From NCBI GenBank assembly GCA_919903025.1, contig CAKKSE010000035.1:1-42486 (forward strand): a DNA stretch of 42,486 nt, given 5' to 3'. The notes beneath the pieces are model-generated. The model was not told the origin of the DNA and ran no database searches. It worked only from the letters and a program-made list of their open reading frames with translations. This document shows positions 8,374 to 22,246 of the stretch, piece after piece; the first letter of the stretch is position 1, and each line of letters begins with the position of its first letter. The translations under genes and the position numbers were made by a program. The DNA comes from Nitrospiria bacterium. GTDB lineage: Bacteria > Nitrospirota > RBG-16-64-22.

Positions 8374-11007
8374 TTATCCTCCACTCCTCCACTTGTGGAG
8401 CAGATTCAGCGCCTCGATCGGGGTCAGGCGTTCCAGGTCCAGGCTGTCGAGCTCACGGGCGATCCGGTCTTCCTTTTCGCCGAACAGGTTGAGCTGGGGC
8501 GGGCCGGAGGGTTGTCCCGTCCCTTCGGCGCGGCGCGCGAGGCGCGGCTCGCCGTTCGACGTGATCGCTGAGGCTTCGAGGTTGGCCAGGATCTCCCGCG
8601 CCCGGGCGATGACGGGTTCCGGCAGGCCCGCGAGCCGCCCGACGTGGATCCCGTAGCTCTTGTCGGCGCCCCCTTCCTCGATCTTGTGCAGGAAAACGAT
8701 CTGGTCCCCCCATTCGCGGACGGAGACCCGGTGATTGAGGACGCCCTCGCAGGTGAGCGGAAGTTCCGTAAGCTCGTGATAGTGCGTGGCGAAGAGCGTG
8801 CGGGCGCGGAGGCGTCCCGCAAGGTCCTCGGCCACGGCCCAGGCGATCCCCACGCCGTCGAACGTCGACGTGCCCCGGCCGATCTCGTCGAGGATGACCA
8901 GACTCCGATCGGTGGCCTGACGGAGGACCTGTGCCGTCTCGGCCATCTCGACCATGAAGGTGCTCTGGCCGCGCGAGATGTAGTCAGTCGCGCCGATCCG
9001 GGTGAAGATGCGGTCAACGACGCCGATCCGCGCGGCGGCGGCGGGGACGGGCGCTCCCGCCTGGGCCAGGACGACGATCAGGGCGACCTGCCGCATGTAG
9101 GTCGACTTCCCGGCCATGTTAGGCCCCGTGATGACGTGGATCGGCGCTTGGGGCGCGAGGCGCGTGTCGTTCGGCACGAACCGGTCGGATCCGAGCGCCT
9201 CGACGACCGGGTGACGGCCGTCCTGGATCTCGATCTCGCGCGAGTCGTCGACCGTCGGAAGGACGTAATTCCGCCGGACACCGGTCTCCGCCAGAGCGGA
9301 GAGGCAGTCGAGACCGGCCACGGCGCGGGCCGTTCGCTGGATCCGGGCGGCTGACTGCGTGACGGCGGCGCAGAGCCCCTGGAACAGATCGTACTCGCGG
9401 AGAGCGATCTTTTCGTCGGCCCCGACGACCTGCTCTTCGAACTCCTTCAGTTCCGGGGTCGTGAATCGTTCCGCGCCGACGAGCGTCTGCTTCCGCATGT
9501 AGTCGCTCGGAACGCGTTCCTGCTGGGCCTTCGTCACCTCGATATAGTAGCCGAACACGCGGTTGTACCGGACCTTGAGCGAAGGGATCCCCGTCCGTTC
9601 CCGCTCCCGCCTCTCGATCTCGGCGATCATCCCCCGCCCCGCTCGGCCGATCTCCCGAAGAGCGTCGAGCGCCGCGTCCCAGCCGGGCCGGATCATCCCT
9701 CCCTCGCGGACAGTCGCGGGTGGGTCGTCAATCAGGGCGCGGGAGAGCAGGTCCGCCAGGTCGGGGATCGCATCAAGGCTCTCGCCGAAGGGGTCGAGCG
9801 GACCGGGTCCCGCCGTCTCCAAAACAGCGATCAGTCTCGGGACGGCCGCCATTGAGGCGCGGAGCGCCGCCAGATCCCGCGCGCCGGCCGTGCCCATCGT
9901 CACGCGGGCCAGCAGGCGTTCGAGATCGAGGACCTCCGGCAGAACGCCTCGAATGCCCTGCCTGATCCCCCCCTCCTCCATGAAGGTCCGAACGCCGGCC
10001 TGACGCTCGCGGATCGCGGCGACGTCGGTCAGCGGAGCGTGAAGCCATTCACGGATGAGCCGGGCGCCCATGGCGGTCCTCGTCTCGTCCATGACCGAAA
10101 GGAGCGATCCCCGGGGCGAGCCGTCATACAGGGACCGCGATATTTCAAGGGTCCGGATGGCGTTCGCGTCGAGGACGGGAACGGAATCCCGAACGAACCG
10201 GATCTCGCGGACATGGCTCAGCTCCCGCATCTGGGTCTCGCGGGCGTAGGAGACGGCCGCCGAAGCCGCCCCGACGGAGAGATCGTGTCCGGCCAGACCA
10301 AACGGTTCGAGCGTCGCCACGCCGAACTGGTCCTTCAGGCGGGACTCCCCCGTCGCCGAATCGAACCGGGCCGCCGGCCAGCGCGTGATCGTCGCCCCCC
10401 ATTCGGCCGCGGCCGCGGCGACGGCCGGGTCCGGCTCCCCCCTGTCCGGGACCAGGACTTCGGCCGGCCTGTGCCGATCGAGGAACAGAATCCCCTCCCG
10501 AACGCTTTCCTGCTCAGCCGCGAGAAGACGCCCCGTCGACAGATCGAGAAGGGCCAGGCCCGCGCGGCCGCCGCGGTCGAGGAAGGCGGCCAGGCTCCTC
10601 GATTCCCGCGCGTCGAGGAGGGCGGGATCGAGGGCCGTTCCCGGCGTGACGACGCGCACGACCTCGCGGCGGACGATCCCCTTCGCCTGCCGGGGGTCCT
10701 CGACTTGGTCGCAGACGGCCACGCGGTAACCCCGGTTGACCAGCTTGGCGAGGTACGCTTCGGCCGCGACGACAGGGACGCCGCACAAGGGAACGGCGTC
10801 CGGGCGTCCCTTGTTCCGGGACGTGAGGGCGATTTCTAGGACGCCCGACGCCGTCACGGCGTCCTCGAAGAACATCTCATAGAAGTCGCCCATCCGGAAG
10901 AAGAGGATGGCGTCCGGGTGCGCCTTCTTGATCTCTTGGTATTGCCGCATGGCCGGCGTCAGGCCGGCGCGGCCGTTAGCCGGGGAACCGGGGACGGAGC
11001 TTCTCAT
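8374..11007 (-). CDS. mutS: DNA mismatch repair protein MutS
   Basis: Recognises mismatches and small loops and recruits MutL. The 877-residue length is typical. The mismatch-wedge motif appears as FFRMGDFYEMFFEDA at about residue 40. The ATPase domain has the Walker A GPNMAGKSTYMRQ at about residue 625, the Walker B ILDEIGRGTSTFDG and the conserved ATHYHEL. The ATG at 11007 overlaps the HIT gene by 32 bp and keeps the family motif LTPAMRQYQEIK, which lies upstream of the next ATG (10950), so I favour the longer form. No mutL is visible in the window. Confidence 0.97.
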   Translation of the reverse strand: MRSSVPGSPANGRAGLTPAMRQYQEIKKAHPDAILFFRMGDFYEMFFEDAVTASGVLEIALTSRNKGRPDAVPLCGVPVVAAEAYLAKLVNRGYRVAVCDQVEDPRQAKGIVRREVVRVVTPGTALDPALLDARESRSLAAFLDRGGRAGLALLDLSTGRLLAAEQESVREGILFLDRHRPAEVLVPDRGEPDPAVAAAAAEWGATITRWPAARFDSATGESRLKDQFGVATLEPFGLAGHDLSVGAASAAVSYARETQMRELSHVREIRFVRDSVPVLDANAIRTLEISRSLYDGSPRGSLLSVMDETRTAMGARLIREWLHAPLTDVAAIRERQAGVRTFMEEGGIRQGIRGVLPEVLDLERLLARVTMGTAGARDLAALRASMAAVPRLIAVLETAGPGPLDPFGESLDAIPDLADLLSRALIDDPPATVREGGMIRPGWDAALDALREIGRAGRGMIAEIERRERERTGIPSLKVRYNRVFGYYIEVTKAQQERVPSDYMRKQTLVGAERFTTPELKEFEEQVVGADEKIALREYDLFQGLCAAVTQSAARIQRTARAVAGLDCLSALAETGVRRNYVLPTVDDSREIEIQDGRHPVVEALGSDRFVPNDTRLAPQAPIHVITGPNMAGKSTYMRQVALIVVLAQAGAPVPAAAARIGVVDRIFTRIGATDYISRGQSTFMVEMAETAQVLRQATDRSLVILDEIGRGTSTFDGVGIAWAVAEDLAGRLRARTLFATHYHELTELPLTCEGVLNHRVSVREWGDQIVFLHKIEEGGADKSYGIHVGRLAGLPEPVIARAREILANLEASAITSNGEPRLARRAEGTGQPSGPPQLNLFGEKEDRIARELDSLDLERLTPIEALNLLHKWRSGG

Positions 11008-11549: not shown

Positions 11550-13436
11550 TTAGAATAGGACGCTGTAGACCGAAACGGTTTTGTCCACGCCTTCGAGGAC
11601 CACGTCCCCGACAAATTCGAGGACGATGCGCTGTCCGAGGACCTCATCGGCGAACGACAGGTGGCGCGCTTCCTCGCCTCCGGCGTCGCTCGCGACGACC
11701 CTGCGGATCTCTTCGACCGTGTCCAGGCTCACGACGATTCCGACGTTGAACAACTGCCCCCGGCCGTCCACCGAGACGCCCGAGACCATCCGCCGCGTGA
11801 GGAAGCGTTGCGAAACGAACTGCTTGAACCCCTCGGCCTCCCGGGGCCCCCCCAGGCTCTCGGCGAGCGAATGGATCATCGTCCGGAACTCGTCCGACTC
11901 CCCCGCGGGCGCGGCGGGTTGTTTCGGAGACGAGAGCCGCCCGGCGAGATTCACGTTTCGCCCGATCACCGTCCGGTGAACCTGCCCCTGACACCCCATG
12001 AACTCGGCGACGAAGACCCGGCCCGTGTGGAGGGCGATCCCCATCTTGAGGTCGGTCTTCCCCTGGCGGCGGAGCCCGTCGAGGTGGCGCTGCATCATCA
12101 CGGCCGTCCGGAGGCCCATGAGCGGGTCCTCGCGCCGCGGGATCGGGACGCCGAAGGTGATCATGACGCCGTCGCCGATGAACTTGTCGATGCGTCCCCC
12201 GAAACGCATCACGATCTCGGCGATCGGGTCGAAGATTCGATAGAGCGATTCGGTCAGCTCTTTCTCGGAGAACCCCTTTTCGGAGAGGCGCGTGAATCCG
12301 CGGACGTCGGCGAAGAGGATCGTCGCCGCGCGGGCGTTGTTCACCACCTGTTCGGCCTCTCCGAATCGGAACAGCCGTCCCTGGCTGAAGAGGATTTCTT
12401 CCTCGGACGCCGCCGCCTCCGTCGTGAGGAGGTGGACCCTGTGCTGGAGGACCTCGAGGATCTCCGTCCGCCGGACGCCGTCCAGGAGGGCCTTGTACCG
12501 GTCCAGAAGGACGGTCCACCCATTCAGGCGCCCGGCCGCCTCGACCAGGACCGGCCTGGACCGCAGGGAGCCGGCCACCGCGTCGATGTCGGTCAGGAGA
12601 TAGTCGACGAAGGGCCGGCAGAAGAGGGCCTTGAGCTGCGCCTTCTTTTCGGAGAGATGCTCCACGGGGATGAAGGGAAGGAAGGTTCGGAGCGCTCCGA
12701 GGACTCCCCCCTCACGGGATTCGACGGCGCGGAGGAGGCGCGTTTTCAGGATGTGGAACACCTCCGTGAAGACACGGTGCGAGAAGGGATAGCGGGGATT
12801 GTGACCGGCGAGAACGACGGAGAGGTTGATCTTGTGGATGGCCGTCTCCGTGATCGGGAACTGGTCGGAGACGATCGACTCGATCAACTGCCATCGGAAC
12901 GCGGGGCCGAATTGAATGCGGACCTTGTCCGGCTCGGCTTCGGTGAGGGCCCGAAGGGCACGCGACTGGGCGGCCTGCAGGGCGCCGGCCAGGATAATCT
13001 CCACGCGATAGCGGAGAAAGACTTTCCGTCCCCGTCCCGTGAAGAACTCGTTGACCAGCACGGCCAGATACTTGGCGAAGGCCAGCCAGAAAAGGTTGAC
13101 CAGCCCGTTCCGCCGTTCATGCGGCATCGTCCGGACCAGGACGTCGCGAAGCGTCGCGATGAATTCGTTTTCCGCGGAGGCGCCCGATTCCACGTAGGCC
13201 AGGGGCGCGCCCTCGTCGTGCCCCTCGATGAGCCGATAAGCGTGATCCAGGAACGCCGAGGTGCGGCTCAGCAGATCCAGCGGAAGCCGGACGTGAAGCG
13301 ATTCGGCCCCGCCGCGCAGGGCCTCCTCCTCTGGAAGGACGGGAAGCGCGCTTCCGAACAGCGTCGCCACCTCGTCCTCGGTCCCTTGCGTGAAGGTGAG
13401 GTGCCGGCAGACCTCGGGCGGAAAGTAGGTTCTCAT
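11550..13436 (-). CDS. Class III adenylate/guanylate cyclase with unrecognised N-terminal domain
   Basis: The C-terminal cyclase domain (about residues 371-505 of 628) has LFADVRGFT with the first metal-binding Asp, DKFIGDGVMITFG with the second Asp and the substrate-contacting Lys, and TVIGRNVNLAGRL with the conserved Asn and Arg. It should be catalytically active. The residue at the purine-selecting position is Thr, so cAMP versus cGMP cannot be settled. The first 370 residues show no transmembrane segment, GAF, PAS or HAMP pattern that I recognise; they look mostly helical. About 120 residues follow the catalytic domain. The ATG overlaps the stop of the upstream uracil-DNA glycosylase gene (ATGA), making it the last gene of the pdxJ-to-cyclase operon. 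Confidence 0.88.
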   Translation of the reverse strand: MRTYFPPEVCRHLTFTQGTEDEVATLFGSALPVLPEEEALRGGAESLHVRLPLDLLSRTSAFLDHAYRLIEGHDEGAPLAYVESGASAENEFIATLRDVLVRTMPHERRNGLVNLFWLAFAKYLAVLVNEFFTGRGRKVFLRYRVEIILAGALQAAQSRALRALTEAEPDKVRIQFGPAFRWQLIESIVSDQFPITETAIHKINLSVVLAGHNPRYPFSHRVFTEVFHILKTRLLRAVESREGGVLGALRTFLPFIPVEHLSEKKAQLKALFCRPFVDYLLTDIDAVAGSLRSRPVLVEAAGRLNGWTVLLDRYKALLDGVRRTEILEVLQHRVHLLTTEAAASEEEILFSQGRLFRFGEAEQVVNNARAATILFADVRGFTRLSEKGFSEKELTESLYRIFDPIAEIVMRFGGRIDKFIGDGVMITFGVPIPRREDPLMGLRTAVMMQRHLDGLRRQGKTDLKMGIALHTGRVFVAEFMGCQGQVHRTVIGRNVNLAGRLSSPKQPAAPAGESDEFRTMIHSLAESLGGPREAEGFKQFVSQRFLTRRMVSGVSVDGRGQLFNVGIVVSLDTVEEIRRVVASDAGGEEARHLSFADEVLGQRIVLEFVGDVVLEGVDKTVSVYSVLF

Positions 13437-18356: not shown

Positions 18357-18385
18357 TTGACTTCGACTTGGCGGAATCCTAGTAT
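18357..18385 (+). promoter_or_regulatory. Probable promoter of the CRP-like gene
   Basis: TTGACT (18357-18362), a 17-bp spacer and TAGTAT (18380-18385). A further TTGACA occurs at 18340-18345 but has no matching -10 box. Because the TTG of this -35 box and an ATG inside the -10 box are both in frame with the downstream gene, gene finders may take them as starts. Confidence 0.55.
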
Positions 18386-18434: not shown

Positions 18435-19124
18435 ATGGCACAGACGTCGCTCATCCCGCCCATTCCCCTTTTCGAAGGGCTCGACCGGACCGAGGTCGAA
18501 AGGCTTGCCGACGCCATCGTGCACCGGCATTTTCCCCGTCATGCAATCATCCTCTGGCAGGAGGACTCCGGGGGGACTCTCTTCATTCTGGAAAGAGGCA
18601 AGGTGAAAGTCTCCCTCTTCAGCGATGAAGGCCGGGAGATCATCCTGGCGACTCTTGGGCCGGGCGAATGTTTCGGCGAGCTCGCGATCCTGACCGGCGG
18701 GGTTCGGTCGGCCACGGTGACAGCCGTCACCGACTGCGACGTGGGCGTTCTCGACGGAAAGATGTTCGAGCAGGCGCTCGCGTCCTCCCACAAGCTGGCC
18801 CTGACCCTCCTCCGCCTGCTTGGGACGCGCCTCCGCGAGGCCGACGACCGCATCGGCGACCTGGCTCTCCTGGACGTGTACGGCCGGGTTGCCCGGCACC
18901 TGCTGAAGATCGCCGCGAAGGCCGAGAAGGTCGGCGGCGTTCTCGTCGTTCACCCGGTACCGTCGCCGACGGCGATCGCCGAGCGGATCGGCTCGTCCCG
19001 CGAGACGGTCTCCCGCGTCCTGTCGGACCTGGAGCGCCGGGGCATCATCGCCCGCTCGGACCGGACGTTCGTTATCCGCAGACCCGGGGCGCTGTCGGGA
19101 ACCGAAAAAGGGCGCCAAGCGTGA
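18435..19124 (+). CDS. CRP/FNR-family transcriptional regulator, CRP-like
   Basis: The N-terminal cyclic-nucleotide-binding domain has FGELAILTGGVRSATV. Its Glu and the Arg-Ser pair match the cAMP-contacting residues of E. coli CRP. The dimerisation helix DRIGDLALLDVYGRVARHLL is also CRP-like. The C-terminal helix-turn-helix has SSRETVSRVLSDLERRGII, keeping the Arg, Glu and Arg that read GTGA half-sites in CRP. No FNR-type N-terminal cysteine cluster exists. I place the start at the ATG 18435 (229 residues) because earlier in-frame starts at 18357 and 18384 lie inside the promoter boxes; those would add up to 26 residues. It is divergent from the pdxJ operon, which ends in a nucleotidyl cyclase. 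Confidence 0.88.
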   Translation: MAQTSLIPPIPLFEGLDRTEVERLADAIVHRHFPRHAIILWQEDSGGTLFILERGKVKVSLFSDEGREIILATLGPGECFGELAILTGGVRSATVTAVTDCDVGVLDGKMFEQALASSHKLALTLLRLLGTRLREADDRIGDLALLDVYGRVARHLLKIAAKAEKVGGVLVVHPVPSPTAIAERIGSSRETVSRVLSDLERRGIIARSDRTFVIRRPGALSGTEKGRQA

Positions 19125-19135
19125 CGGACGTCACG
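19120..19135. promoter_or_regulatory. CRP-type palindrome upstream of the envelope gene block
   Basis: CGTGACGGACGTCACG is a perfect palindrome of the form CGTGA-N6-TCACG, matching the TGTGA-N6-TCACA layout except at the outermost bases. It overlaps the stop codon of the CRP-like gene. A TGTAAC hexamer at 19156-19161 could be a -10 box. It would put the palindrome centre near -41, as at class II CRP-activated promoters. No convincing -35 box is seen. Confidence 0.5.
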
Positions 19136-19208
19136 GCAAAAAGCGGCGATCGTCCTGTAACCTGACCAAGCTCGCGTAGCGGTCAATTCCAAATACAAGG
19201 AGGAACCG

Positions 19209-19763
19209 ATGCCCGGAAGAAGAATGATCCCAGTGCGAATCGTCGCGGCGGCGGCTGTTCTCGCCCTTCTCCCTCTGACCGCGGCCTGCGGGAAGAAGGA
19301 AGAGTCCAAGTCGATCAACATTCCCGGCCTCGGGAAGATCGAGACGAAGGGAGACGGCAAGGATGCGACGTTCTCGATCAAGACCAAGGAGGGAGAGGTC
19401 AAGTTCGAGAGTTCCAAGACCGTAACCGAGGCCGATCTGGGCGTTCCCATCTACCCCGGCGCGAAGTCGCAGGATGGCGGAAGCCTCATGATCGCCGGCG
19501 GCGGAAAGGAAAAGGGAGGGTCGTGGACCGCGGCCAATTTCACGACGGCCGATCCATACGAAAGCGTCAGGGACTTCTACAAGGGGAAAGCCGGTGCGGA
19601 TGCCCAGATCATGGAGACGTCGGCGGAAGGCGCCAAGACGGCCATGTTCCACCTGAAGGCCAAGGACGAGAAGGACAAGACCGCGGCCACGGTCATCGTC
19701 TCGCGCTCGAAAGACAAGCCGGAGACGGAGATTCACATTCAGCGCGTATCAGAGAAGAACTGA
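19209..19763 (+). CDS. Predicted lipoprotein of unknown function
   Basis: The 184-residue protein has a signal peptide (basic PGRRMIPVRI, hydrophobic VAAAAVLALLPL) and a lipobox LTAAC at about residue 27, so it is probably lipid-anchored. After the charged linker GKKEESK comes a domain with VPIYPGAKSQDGG, FTTADPYESVRDFYKG and a strand-rich C-terminus. The YPGA and SVRDFYK pattern is shared by many secreted bacterial proteins of unknown function. AAGGAGG precedes the ATG. It is the first gene after the CRP-type palindrome and is followed within 30 bp by another exported protein. Confidence 0.8.
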   Translation: MPGRRMIPVRIVAAAAVLALLPLTAACGKKEESKSINIPGLGKIETKGDGKDATFSIKTKEGEVKFESSKTVTEADLGVPIYPGAKSQDGGSLMIAGGGKEKGGSWTAANFTTADPYESVRDFYKGKAGADAQIMETSAEGAKTAMFHLKAKDEKDKTAATVIVSRSKDKPETEIHIQRVSEKN

Positions 19764-19792: not shown

Positions 19793-20446
19793 ATGAACGC
19801 AAGAAGGATAAGAACTCTTCTTCCGGGACTGGTTCTGACCGCCTTGATTGCCGCTCCCGGGACGGCGTACGCCGGCAACGTCAGCTTCTGGGTCGGCTCT
19901 CCCTGGTTCGGCGCCTGGAGCGGTCACGCGGGAAGCGGGTTCTGGGTCGGATTGGACGGCCTCCTGATCGGCGCGGGACACGGAGGCCTCTGGGTGAGCG
20001 GAGGATATCCGTCCGGCCGCTGGCGCCACTTCGACCATCGGGACCACCGGCAACACCCGCGGTGGGGACACGGCTCGGTTTACGCGCCAGCTTACGCGAC
20101 GTATCCAGACGGCCGGCCATACGCCCCCGTCGTCGTCGTGGCGCCGGTCCGTACGGCTGAGGCTCCCGAGTCAACACCGCCGACGGCGGAACCAAGCCCC
20201 TCTCCCCACGGCGTCTTCTACTACGGCTACCCCGTCCACGGGGCGGGACGCCTCTCGCTGTCCGGCCTCCCGGAGAACTCCAGGGTTCTCATTGACGGCG
20301 TCCCGATCCGCGAGCGGGAGGTCTCGCTTCTCTCCGGCGCTCACCGGGTCGAGGTCCACGCCCCCGGCTTTCGACCGATCAATAAGGACGTCGAAATCCG
20401 CATGAACGAGATCCACGACCTCGCCGCAACCATGACCAGGGAATAG
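19793..20446 (+). CDS. Secreted protein with C-terminal PEGA-like domain
   Basis: A 217-residue protein with a cleavable signal peptide ending near AAPGTAYAG. The next about 100 residues are rich in Gly, Trp, His and Pro (for example WVGSPWFGAWSGHAGSGFW) and of low complexity. The last about 65 residues, from GRLSLSGLPENSRVLIDGVP to VEVHAPGFRP, match the PEGA pattern, a small beta domain common in surface proteins. The start at 19793 is chosen because the signal peptide begins there; longer frames run back into the lipoprotein gene. Function is unknown. Confidence 0.75.
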   Translation: MNARRIRTLLPGLVLTALIAAPGTAYAGNVSFWVGSPWFGAWSGHAGSGFWVGLDGLLIGAGHGGLWVSGGYPSGRWRHFDHRDHRQHPRWGHGSVYAPAYATYPDGRPYAPVVVVAPVRTAEAPESTPPTAEPSPSPHGVFYYGYPVHGAGRLSLSGLPENSRVLIDGVPIREREVSLLSGAHRVEVHAPGFRPINKDVEIRMNEIHDLAATMTRE

Positions 20447-20481: not shown

Positions 20482-20841
20482 ATGTCGCCCGAAGGCTCGA
20501 CCGCATCGAATCTCGGCACCTCGTCCACCGGACTACAGCCAAACGTGGCAGCGGCCCTCTCCTACCTTCTCGGAATCCTCACGGGGATCATTTTCTTCGT
20601 CATCGAGAAGGACAATCGCTTCGTCAAGTTCCACGCGATGCAGTCGATCCTCGTGTGGGCGGCCGTCTTCGTCGCATATATTGTCCTCATGTTCATCCCA
20701 ATCATCGGGTGGATCATCGCTCTCTTCCTGTGGATCGGCGTGCTCGTCCTCTGGCTCCTTCTGATGTGGAAAGCGTATCAGGGCGAGTGGTTCAAGCTCC
20801 CGATTCTCGGCGACATGGCCGAAAAGAACACGCAGTCGTAG
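20482..20841 (+). CDS. Small membrane protein (DUF4870/Tic20-like)
   Basis: 119 residues with three predicted membrane helices: AALSYLLGILTGIIFFVIE, ILVWAAVFVAYIVLMFI and IIALFLWIGVLVLWLLLMW. The sequence EKDNRFVKFHAMQSI between helices one and two is the signature of the DUF4870 family, whose role is not established. The ATG at 20482 has AAGGAGG at good spacing; a TTG at 20476 is too close to it. It sits between exported proteins in the envelope block. Confidence 0.85.
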   Translation: MSPEGSTASNLGTSSTGLQPNVAAALSYLLGILTGIIFFVIEKDNRFVKFHAMQSILVWAAVFVAYIVLMFIPIIGWIIALFLWIGVLVLWLLLMWKAYQGEWFKLPILGDMAEKNTQS

Positions 20842-20851
20842 GGGAGGCCCC

Positions 20852-21499
20852 ATGCGAATCTTCAACCGAACAATTACTGTTCTCTTGGCGGCGCTCGTCC
20901 TTCTGGCGGTCGCCCTCACGGCGGAGGCCCAGCCGCGGATCGCCGTGAAGGATTTCCGGGACAAGAGCGCAAAAGGATACGCGAAGATCGGCGCGGGGAT
21001 GGCGGAGATGCTGGCCACCGCCCTCGTCGAGACGGGAAGATACGTCGTTCTCGAAAGGCAGGCGATCCGGGACGTCCTTGAGGAGCAGGACTTGGGGGCT
21101 TCCGGCCGCGTCAAGAGAGATACGGCCGCGCCCATCGGCGAGATCGAGGGGGCGCAGTACCTGATCTACGGAACGATCACGGAGTTCGAGCCCGATTACC
21201 GCGGGATCGGCGGAGCGGCCGGCATGCCGGGCATCCGGCTCGGAGGAATCGCTGGGGGCGCGAAGCAGTCGCACGTGGCGATCGACCTTCGGATCGTTGA
21301 CGCCAAGACGTCGCGGATCGTCGCCGTCACGAAGGTTGAAGGAAAGGCCACGGACATCGGCGGCGGCATTGGAGGCGTGATCGGCGGCGGAAGGACCACG
21401 ATGCCGCTGGCCCTCGGCGGCTGGGCGAAAACGCCCATGGAGCAGGCGATCCGCGTCTGCATTCAGAATGCCGTCCAATACATTTCGGGAAAGATCTAG
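20852..21499 (+). CDS. CsgG-family protein, non-lipidated paralogue
   Basis: A 215-residue protein with an ordinary signal peptide (VLLAALVLLAVALTAEAQ) and no lipobox cysteine. The mature part has the CsgG/HfaB pattern: RIAVKDFRDKSAKGYAKIG, then GMAEMLATALVETGRYVVLER and YLIYGTITEFEPDY. It ends with LRIVDAKTSRIVAVTKVEGK and a Gly-rich stretch. CsgG proteins form outer-membrane curli secretion channels, but many relatives have other envelope roles. No csgA, csgE or csgF is seen. Its neighbour at 21527 is a close paralogue. Confidence 0.88.
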   Translation: MRIFNRTITVLLAALVLLAVALTAEAQPRIAVKDFRDKSAKGYAKIGAGMAEMLATALVETGRYVVLERQAIRDVLEEQDLGASGRVKRDTAAPIGEIEGAQYLIYGTITEFEPDYRGIGGAAGMPGIRLGGIAGGAKQSHVAIDLRIVDAKTSRIVAVTKVEGKATDIGGGIGGVIGGGRTTMPLALGGWAKTPMEQAIRVCIQNAVQYISGKI

Positions 21500-21526: not shown

Positions 21527-22246
21527 ATGATTACGAATCAGATGTTTCCGCGCTTCATCGTTGCGGGATTGGGGCTCGTTTTTCTGGCGGCTTCGTGCGC
21601 GCCGACGGCCACGGTCCGCGGCGGCGGCGGGCCGACCGCCGCCCAAGCCGAGGCGGTCCCGTACACGGGTCCCCAGAAGCGGATCGCCGTTAAGAAGTTC
21701 ACCGATAAGTCCGCCAAGGGATACCGGCGGATCGGGGATGGCATGTCCGAGATGCTCGCCACGGCCCTGTTCGAGACGGGACGGTTCATCGTCCTCGAGC
21801 GGCAGGCCCTTCGGGACGTGATGGAGGAGCAGGACCTCGGCGCCTCGGGCCGCGTGCGGAGAGAAACAGCCGCGCCCATCGGCCAGATCGAGGGGGCCCA
21901 GCTCTTGATCTACGGCGCGATCACGGAATTCGAGCCGAACTACCGCGGGATCGGCGGAGGCGCGGCCCTGCCCGGCCTCCGGATCGGCGGGCTCGGCGTC
22001 GGCGTCAAGCAGTCGTACGTCGCGATGGATCTCAGGATCGTGGACGCGAAGACTTCGCGCGTGGTGGCGGTAACGAAAGTCGAAGGGAAGGCCACCGACG
22101 TCGGCGCCGCCGGCGCGGGCGTCATCGGCGGCGGAAGGACCACGATGCCGCTGGCCCTCGGCGGCTGGGCGAAAACGCCCATGGAGCAGGCGATCCGCGT
22201 CTGCATCGAGAACGCCGTGCACTTCATCGTGCAGAGAAGCTTCTAG
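21527..22246 (+). CDS. CsgG-family lipoprotein, tandem paralogue
   Basis: A 239-residue protein with a lipobox (FLAASC) at about residue 24, then a Gly/Ala-rich linker and the CsgG domain (RIAVKKFTDKSAKGYRRIG, MLATALFETGRFIVLER, LLIYGAITEFEPNYRGIG). It closely parallels the upstream gene at protein level. An 83-bp segment near the 3' end (22124-22206) is identical to 21380-21462. The lipidated N-terminus is the usual form for CsgG. AAGGAGG precedes the ATG. A strong terminator follows. Confidence 0.88.
   Translation: MITNQMFPRFIVAGLGLVFLAASCAPTATVRGGGGPTAAQAEAVPYTGPQKRIAVKKFTDKSAKGYRRIGDGMSEMLATALFETGRFIVLERQALRDVMEEQDLGASGRVRRETAAPIGQIEGAQLLIYGAITEFEPNYRGIGGGAALPGLRIGGLGVGVKQSYVAMDLRIVDAKTSRVVAVTKVEGKATDVGAAGAGVIGGGRTTMPLALGGWAKTPMEQAIRVCIENAVHFIVQRSF

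Follow-up and report, generated by a model that had tools for sequence, protein, structure and literature searches.

A predicted CRP-family class II activator and its candidate regulon of mostly surface and secreted proteins in an uncultured class of Nitrospirota

The window analyzed here, a stretch of 42,486 nucleotides, lies on contig C35 of a 2.86 Mb Nitrospirota genome (G000). The genus is represented by three genomes (the window genome and its sisters, G001 and G002) and belongs to the class RBG-16-64-22, which is listed among the Nitrospirota classes of almost entirely aquifer members (PMC11033732). This class is known here from assembled genomes only, and its regulation is essentially unstudied; in the system described below, the regulator, the operator, the promoter geometry, and the target list are all readable from sequence. 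A CRP-family regulator of 229 amino acids is encoded at 18435-19124 (plus strand), behind its own promoter (TTGACT-N17-TAGTAT, 18357-18385, plus strand), which was detected in a promoter scan and is kept in both sister genomes. We adopted 18435-19124 as the coding sequence because the in-frame ATG upstream, at 18384, overlaps the -10 box of this promoter. Because the promoter contains no GTGA palindrome, the regulator is probably not autoregulated through such a site. The gene is followed on the same strand by an operon encoding a predicted lipoprotein (19209-19763; lipobox-like LPLTAAC, no Pfam or NCBIfam match), a PEGA-domain envelope protein (19793-20446; PF08308), a DUF4870 membrane protein (20482-20841; PF09685), and two CsgG-family proteins (20852-21499 and 21527-22246; PF03783, 131 and 132 bits, respectively), the second of which is a lipoprotein. 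On the minus strand, a class III nucleotidyl cyclase domain (11550-13436; PF00211, 44 bits) closes a divergent operon, as the first-pass annotation had stated, and this operon comprises seven genes.

The regulator combines a cNMP-binding domain (PF00027, 82.6 bits, cut-off 27.5) with a Crp-type winged helix (HTH_Crp_2, PF13545, 52.2 bits, cut-off 27) and thus is a Crp-like member of the Crp-Fnr superfamily. Residue alignment showed that Gly71, Glu72, Arg82, and Ser83 of Escherichia coli CRP are retained in its phosphate-binding cassette (FGELAILTGGVRSATV) and that Arg180, Glu181, and Arg185 of the recognition helix are present as SRETVSRVL, in agreement with the cAMP-contacting Glu, the Arg-Ser pair, and the recognition-helix Arg-Glu-Arg noticed in the first-pass annotation. 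In E. coli CRP, these three helix residues read GTGA (the SRETV.R code). The score of the regulator against the CRP equivalog model (NF008732), 104.9 bits, is below the cut-off of 266, and the adenine-contacting pair of the CRP C-helix, Thr127/Ser128, is Ala/Asp in all three members of the genus (RLREADDRIG in the window regulator). Positions 19, 21, 96, and 101, which belong to AR2 of E. coli CRP, are occupied by V, R, V, and M; AR2 being unconserved, the contacts of the regulator with RNA polymerase may differ from those in E. coli. In the tree of homologues, the members from the genus are set apart from the other Nitrospirota proteins, without supported close kin.

The stop codon of the regulator gene (19122-19124) is overlapped by a palindrome for which the first-pass annotation gave the form CGTGA-N6-TCACG. 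Its letters (CGTGACGGACGTCACG) lie exactly at 19120-19135, and it is longer than described, with two 7-nt arms around a 2-nt center (CGTGACG-GA-CGTCACG, not assigned to a strand). The palindrome is kept in both sister genomes (CGTGACGGACGTCACG and CGTGACGGACATCACG) inside a conserved 84-nt gap that closes with a conserved Shine-Dalgarno sequence (AAGGAGG, 19197-19203, plus strand) and the ATG at 19209. Only 0.03 copies of the bare CGTGA-N6-TCACG are expected in the window, which contains a second copy (10038-10053) inside a mutS-like gene. Genome-wide, we found 24 copies, compared to one for the reversed pattern; about two-thirds of these are in coding DNA, and the intergenic excess (8 of 24) is modest, with p about 0.01. 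Most of the 24 copies, being coding, look like background, and for this reason the bare palindrome was rejected as evidence of function. Such counts would suit a palindrome that is incidental, that is, frequent in GC-rich coding sequence and here merely overlapping a stop codon, but the conservation of its non-coding half in three genomes, together with the extended motif, its orientation, and the phasing of the -10 region described below, renders this explanation extremely improbable. A terminator reading was also rejected, given that the plus strand has no T-run and the sole terminator-like match is at chance level, and an Rfam search at three of the operator sites gave no match. The variant TGTGA-N6-TCAC was discarded as a regulon site, with few copies and no conserved promoter set.

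Common to the intergenic sites is a longer motif, GCGTGA-N6-TCACGG(AA), which is asymmetric, its GGAA end facing the target. There are five perfect copies of the 14-base form, GCGTGA-N6-TCACGGAA, and the window contributes a sixth with one mismatch (GGCA for GGAA); all lie outside called genes, where 0.018 would be expected. The extended intergenic motif is not a chance product. The other one-mismatch copies that were placed in gene context are all coding, except for an operator on contig C121 of G001. Altogether, the genome-wide search that had been proposed in the first-pass annotation recovered about seven intergenic extended sites spread over several contigs, six of them before genes, mostly those for surface or secreted proteins.

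The promoters at these sites have a common geometry. At 8 of the 19 intergenic palindromes, TGnTA follows TCAC at a distance of exactly 19 nt; none of the other offsets from 12 to 27 has it, and it is absent beside all 92 site orientations in coding regions. When one representative per locus was retained, 5 of the 8 loci had the element in place, a count reached by none of 5,000 dinucleotide shuffles. Summed over the loci, the best TATAAT match begins 22 nt downstream of TCAC, and the palindrome is accordingly centered at -41.5, as in class II CRP promoters. The conserved CGGAA then sits at the -35 position, which accounts for the asymmetry of the motif. This architecture, with an operator at -41.5 over a weak -35 region, recurs across independent targets. 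In the window, the weak -35 region, placed from the -10 register of the aligned target promoters, reads CGGCAAA (19134-19140, plus strand), where the sister genomes and most other targets have CGGAA, and the -10 region falls within 19156-19163 on the same strand according to these alignments and the offset scan. One extra base shifts it off register (center at -40.5 or -42.5, compared with -41.5 in the sister genomes), and the window promoter is the least canonical of the operator promoters. The TGTAAC box proposed in the first-pass annotation does exist, at 19156-19161, and the start near 19169 that went with it is close to the predicted transcription start of the lipoprotein operon, about 19168-19170; the register common to the other targets, however, favors TAACCT (19158-19163) as the -10 element.

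A sigma-70 promoter scan gave no match of the scan's strength over the operator, as expected for activator dependence. The GGAA that follows the palindrome at most sites could alternatively be read as a GGAAC-type -35 element recognized by an ECF sigma factor, with the palindrome as an accessory operator. The base after GGAA is, however, not conserved as C, a CGTC-type -10 is missing, and the actual -10 elements resemble extended sigma-70 ones (TGnTATAAA and TGnTATGGT) at sigma-70 spacing, so that an ECF promoter appears highly unlikely. One further palindrome, before a chemoreceptor-like gene (C8:83324), was excluded from the set as it has no -10 in register. A genome search for the combined site and -10 pattern, allowing two mismatches, yielded no additional promoter that was convincing among the matches placed in context.

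The genome encodes eleven cNMP domains and only three CRP-type HTHs scoring over the cut-off, the recognition helices of which read SRETVSRVL (the window regulator), TTVETAIRVM, and LGREQVVGIL; in a fourth cNMP protein (L017), the HTH is below the threshold and reads LPKERVGG. The window regulator is thus the only protein in the genome with SRETVxR in a CRP-type HTH, and assignment of the operators to it is well supported by this comparison. We infer that the window regulator binds these sites and that binding activates transcription. Considering that GTGA-N6-TCAC is not unique to CRP, genuine promoter operators might instead serve another binder, such as Rex, whose site is TTGTGA-N6-TCACAA, or a repressor of an unrelated kind. 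This alternative seems unlikely: the fixed center at -41.5, the weak -35, and the extended -10 suit an activator rather than a repressor, the flanks of the sites are GC/GG and not TT/AA, and the helix of the regulator is exact for the half-site, with one site located at the end of its own gene. The reading we consider probable is that the regulator acts as a class II activator of the CRP family, with a cyclic nucleotide as the probable ligand, and controls a regulon of mostly surface and secreted proteins that is small and dispersed. The ligand-bound dimer would occupy the palindrome GTGAC-N4-GTCAC (in the context GCGTGA-N6-TCACGG), centered at about -41.5, overlap the degenerate -35 region (CGGAA), and recruit RNA polymerase to the extended -10 (TGnTA).

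The predicted regulon includes, besides the lipoprotein-PEGA-DUF4870-CsgG-CsgG operon of the window, Flp-like pilins together with a type IV prepilin peptidase, adjoining a CpaF-like ATPase (C230), an outer-membrane beta-barrel preceded by a small secreted protein (C230), a secreted-protein operon (C175), and two small Os1348/NHLP-group peptides (C33 and C123), one of which precedes a metal-efflux-like tripartite operon. A further site, on C155, has no evident downstream gene. The outer-membrane, C175, and peptide sites were found again in at least one sister genome; for the Flp promoter, the gene itself was not found in the sister genomes. Activation of the lipoprotein-to-csgG block by the regulator, as put forward in the first-pass annotation, is also what we consider most likely, judging by the site at about -41, the recurrence of this architecture, and the sole matching helix. 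The accompanying notion of a local circuit is replaced by that of a regulon, with sites scattered over several contigs.

The strictly local version of the system, in which the cyclase at 11550-13436 makes cAMP and the regulator activates the lipoprotein-to-csgG operon only, would agree with the location of the two genes within 7 kb, in an arrangement kept in the genus, and with the intact phosphate-binding cassette. It is nonetheless improbable, and not only for the dispersal of the operators and the replacement of both adenine contacts. The genome encodes five class III cyclase domains, three of which (L027, L028, and L029) have the full set of metal Asp, Lys, Asp, Asn, and Arg; one (L030) is degenerate. 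The window cyclase contains both metal Asp, the Lys, Asn, and Arg, and has Arg for the base-specifying Asp (IGRNVNLAGRL), a replacement that is fixed in all three genomes of the genus. Beside regulator homologues outside the genus, the window-type neighborhood was not seen, and GTGA-N6-TCAC was absent except for two isolated cases; the system is confined to the three genomes. The dependence of the regulator on the neighboring cyclase, proposed in the first-pass annotation, loses its footing with three complete domains elsewhere in the genome, and a link from this candidate to the regulator is possible but not favored. The N-terminal region of the window cyclase, roughly 350 residues, is of unknown family. 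An FHA-GAF class III cyclase (L028; L215:11971-13542, G000 C230) is a better candidate for the source of the ligand. This protein, with complete catalytic residues, is encoded near genes for Ser/Thr kinase-like and PP2C-like proteins on the 26-kb contig, C230, that also carries the outer-membrane and Flp operators.

The intact phosphate-binding cassette makes a cyclic nucleotide the probable effector, but with the pair Ala-Asp in place of the adenine-contacting residues, cAMP itself is doubtful. This pair is common to many homologues in Nitrospirota and betaproteobacteria, so in this widespread CRP-like group, with a nucleobase pocket unlike that of CRP, cAMP should not be assumed as the ligand. 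More tentatively, and with more doubt than confidence, we suggest that the Ala-Asp subfamily reads a non-cAMP ligand, either cGMP, with the guanine paired to the Asp, or another nucleotide, and that its members in this genus control surface structures and small NHLP-type peptides as a compact regulon.

Activators of the CRP family and class II promoters are already established, as are operators of the GTGAC type (Clr and CgrA); the new elements are the family member with its Ala-Asp pocket and the predicted regulon, which comes from an uncultured class, and our literature search found no description of such a regulon in the papers retrieved. The window system resembles that of E. coli CRP in the fold, the cassette residues Gly71/Glu72/Arg82/Ser83, the SRETV-R helix, the GTGA-N6-TCAC half-sites, and the class II center at -41.5, but the regulator is distant in sequence, with Ala/Asp for Thr127/Ser128 and other AR2 residues, the outer base of the operator is C/G instead of T/A, and the regulon is small rather than global. 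Among solved structures, the best sequence matches are actinobacterial GlxR and Mycobacterium tuberculosis CRP (PDB 4byy, 3r6s, 3d0s, and 3i54; E about 1e-31), which have the same domain order but are distant, with RLRRTNA or RLRRTNN in the C-helix, compared to RLREADD in the regulator. Clr of Sinorhizobium meliloti is a Crp-like receptor that is fed by class III cyclases, reads cAMP and cGMP through Thr140-Thr141, and acts from class I and class II positions at operators with the motif GTNNCNNNNGNNAC (PMC10127613). This motif fits GTGACNNNNGTCAC, whereas the Thr140-Thr141 pair of Clr (PDB 7pza and 7pzb) corresponds to Ala-Asp in the window regulator. The CRP homologue CgrA of Rhodospirillum centenum has TGTGA-N6-TCACA sites, with CGTGACCGCCGTCACA at one listed target (PMC4681086). 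It shares with the window system GTGA-N6-TCAC sites, CGTGACCGCCGTCACA among them, but is cGMP specific and forms an operon with its own cyclase, in contrast to the loose cyclase linkage of the window regulator. The nearest proteins outside the genus are CRP-family members of betaproteobacteria (Lautropia and Rhodocyclaceae; 38-43% identity), which share the Ala-Asp C-helix motif; they differ in the recognition helix (SREMVSRVM) and are encoded beside trxB-like and FtsK-like genes, as judged by sequence, with no such palindrome nearby.

Several observations concern the small peptides and the sites without genes. The two peptides (L002:1591-1812 and L015:1589-1822) are encoded directly behind operators and belong to the Os1348/NHLP RiPP-like clan with scores that fall short of the curated cut-off, narrowly or by more; CPCGGHKW forms the C-terminus of the first, and no modification enzyme was recognized by eye within the stretches read. 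In G001, the gene for the first peptide is a remnant (L288, G001 C154:8908-8991): the operator, the promoter, and the first 45 codons are gone together, and the last 28 codons persist with 93% identity. On C155 of G000 (L145/L277:2066-2110), a perfect extended operator lies 3' of a gene for a small secreted protein that is CsgG-like but has no Pfam match, with no gene called downstream, and possibly represents the promoter of an untranslated RNA or a decayed promoter. No gene follows the strong operator on C121 of G001 (L167:668-790) and its extended -10 (TGGTATACA); just downstream, a 12-bp GC hairpin is followed by CTCTTTTT, and this operator may drive a short untranslated RNA.
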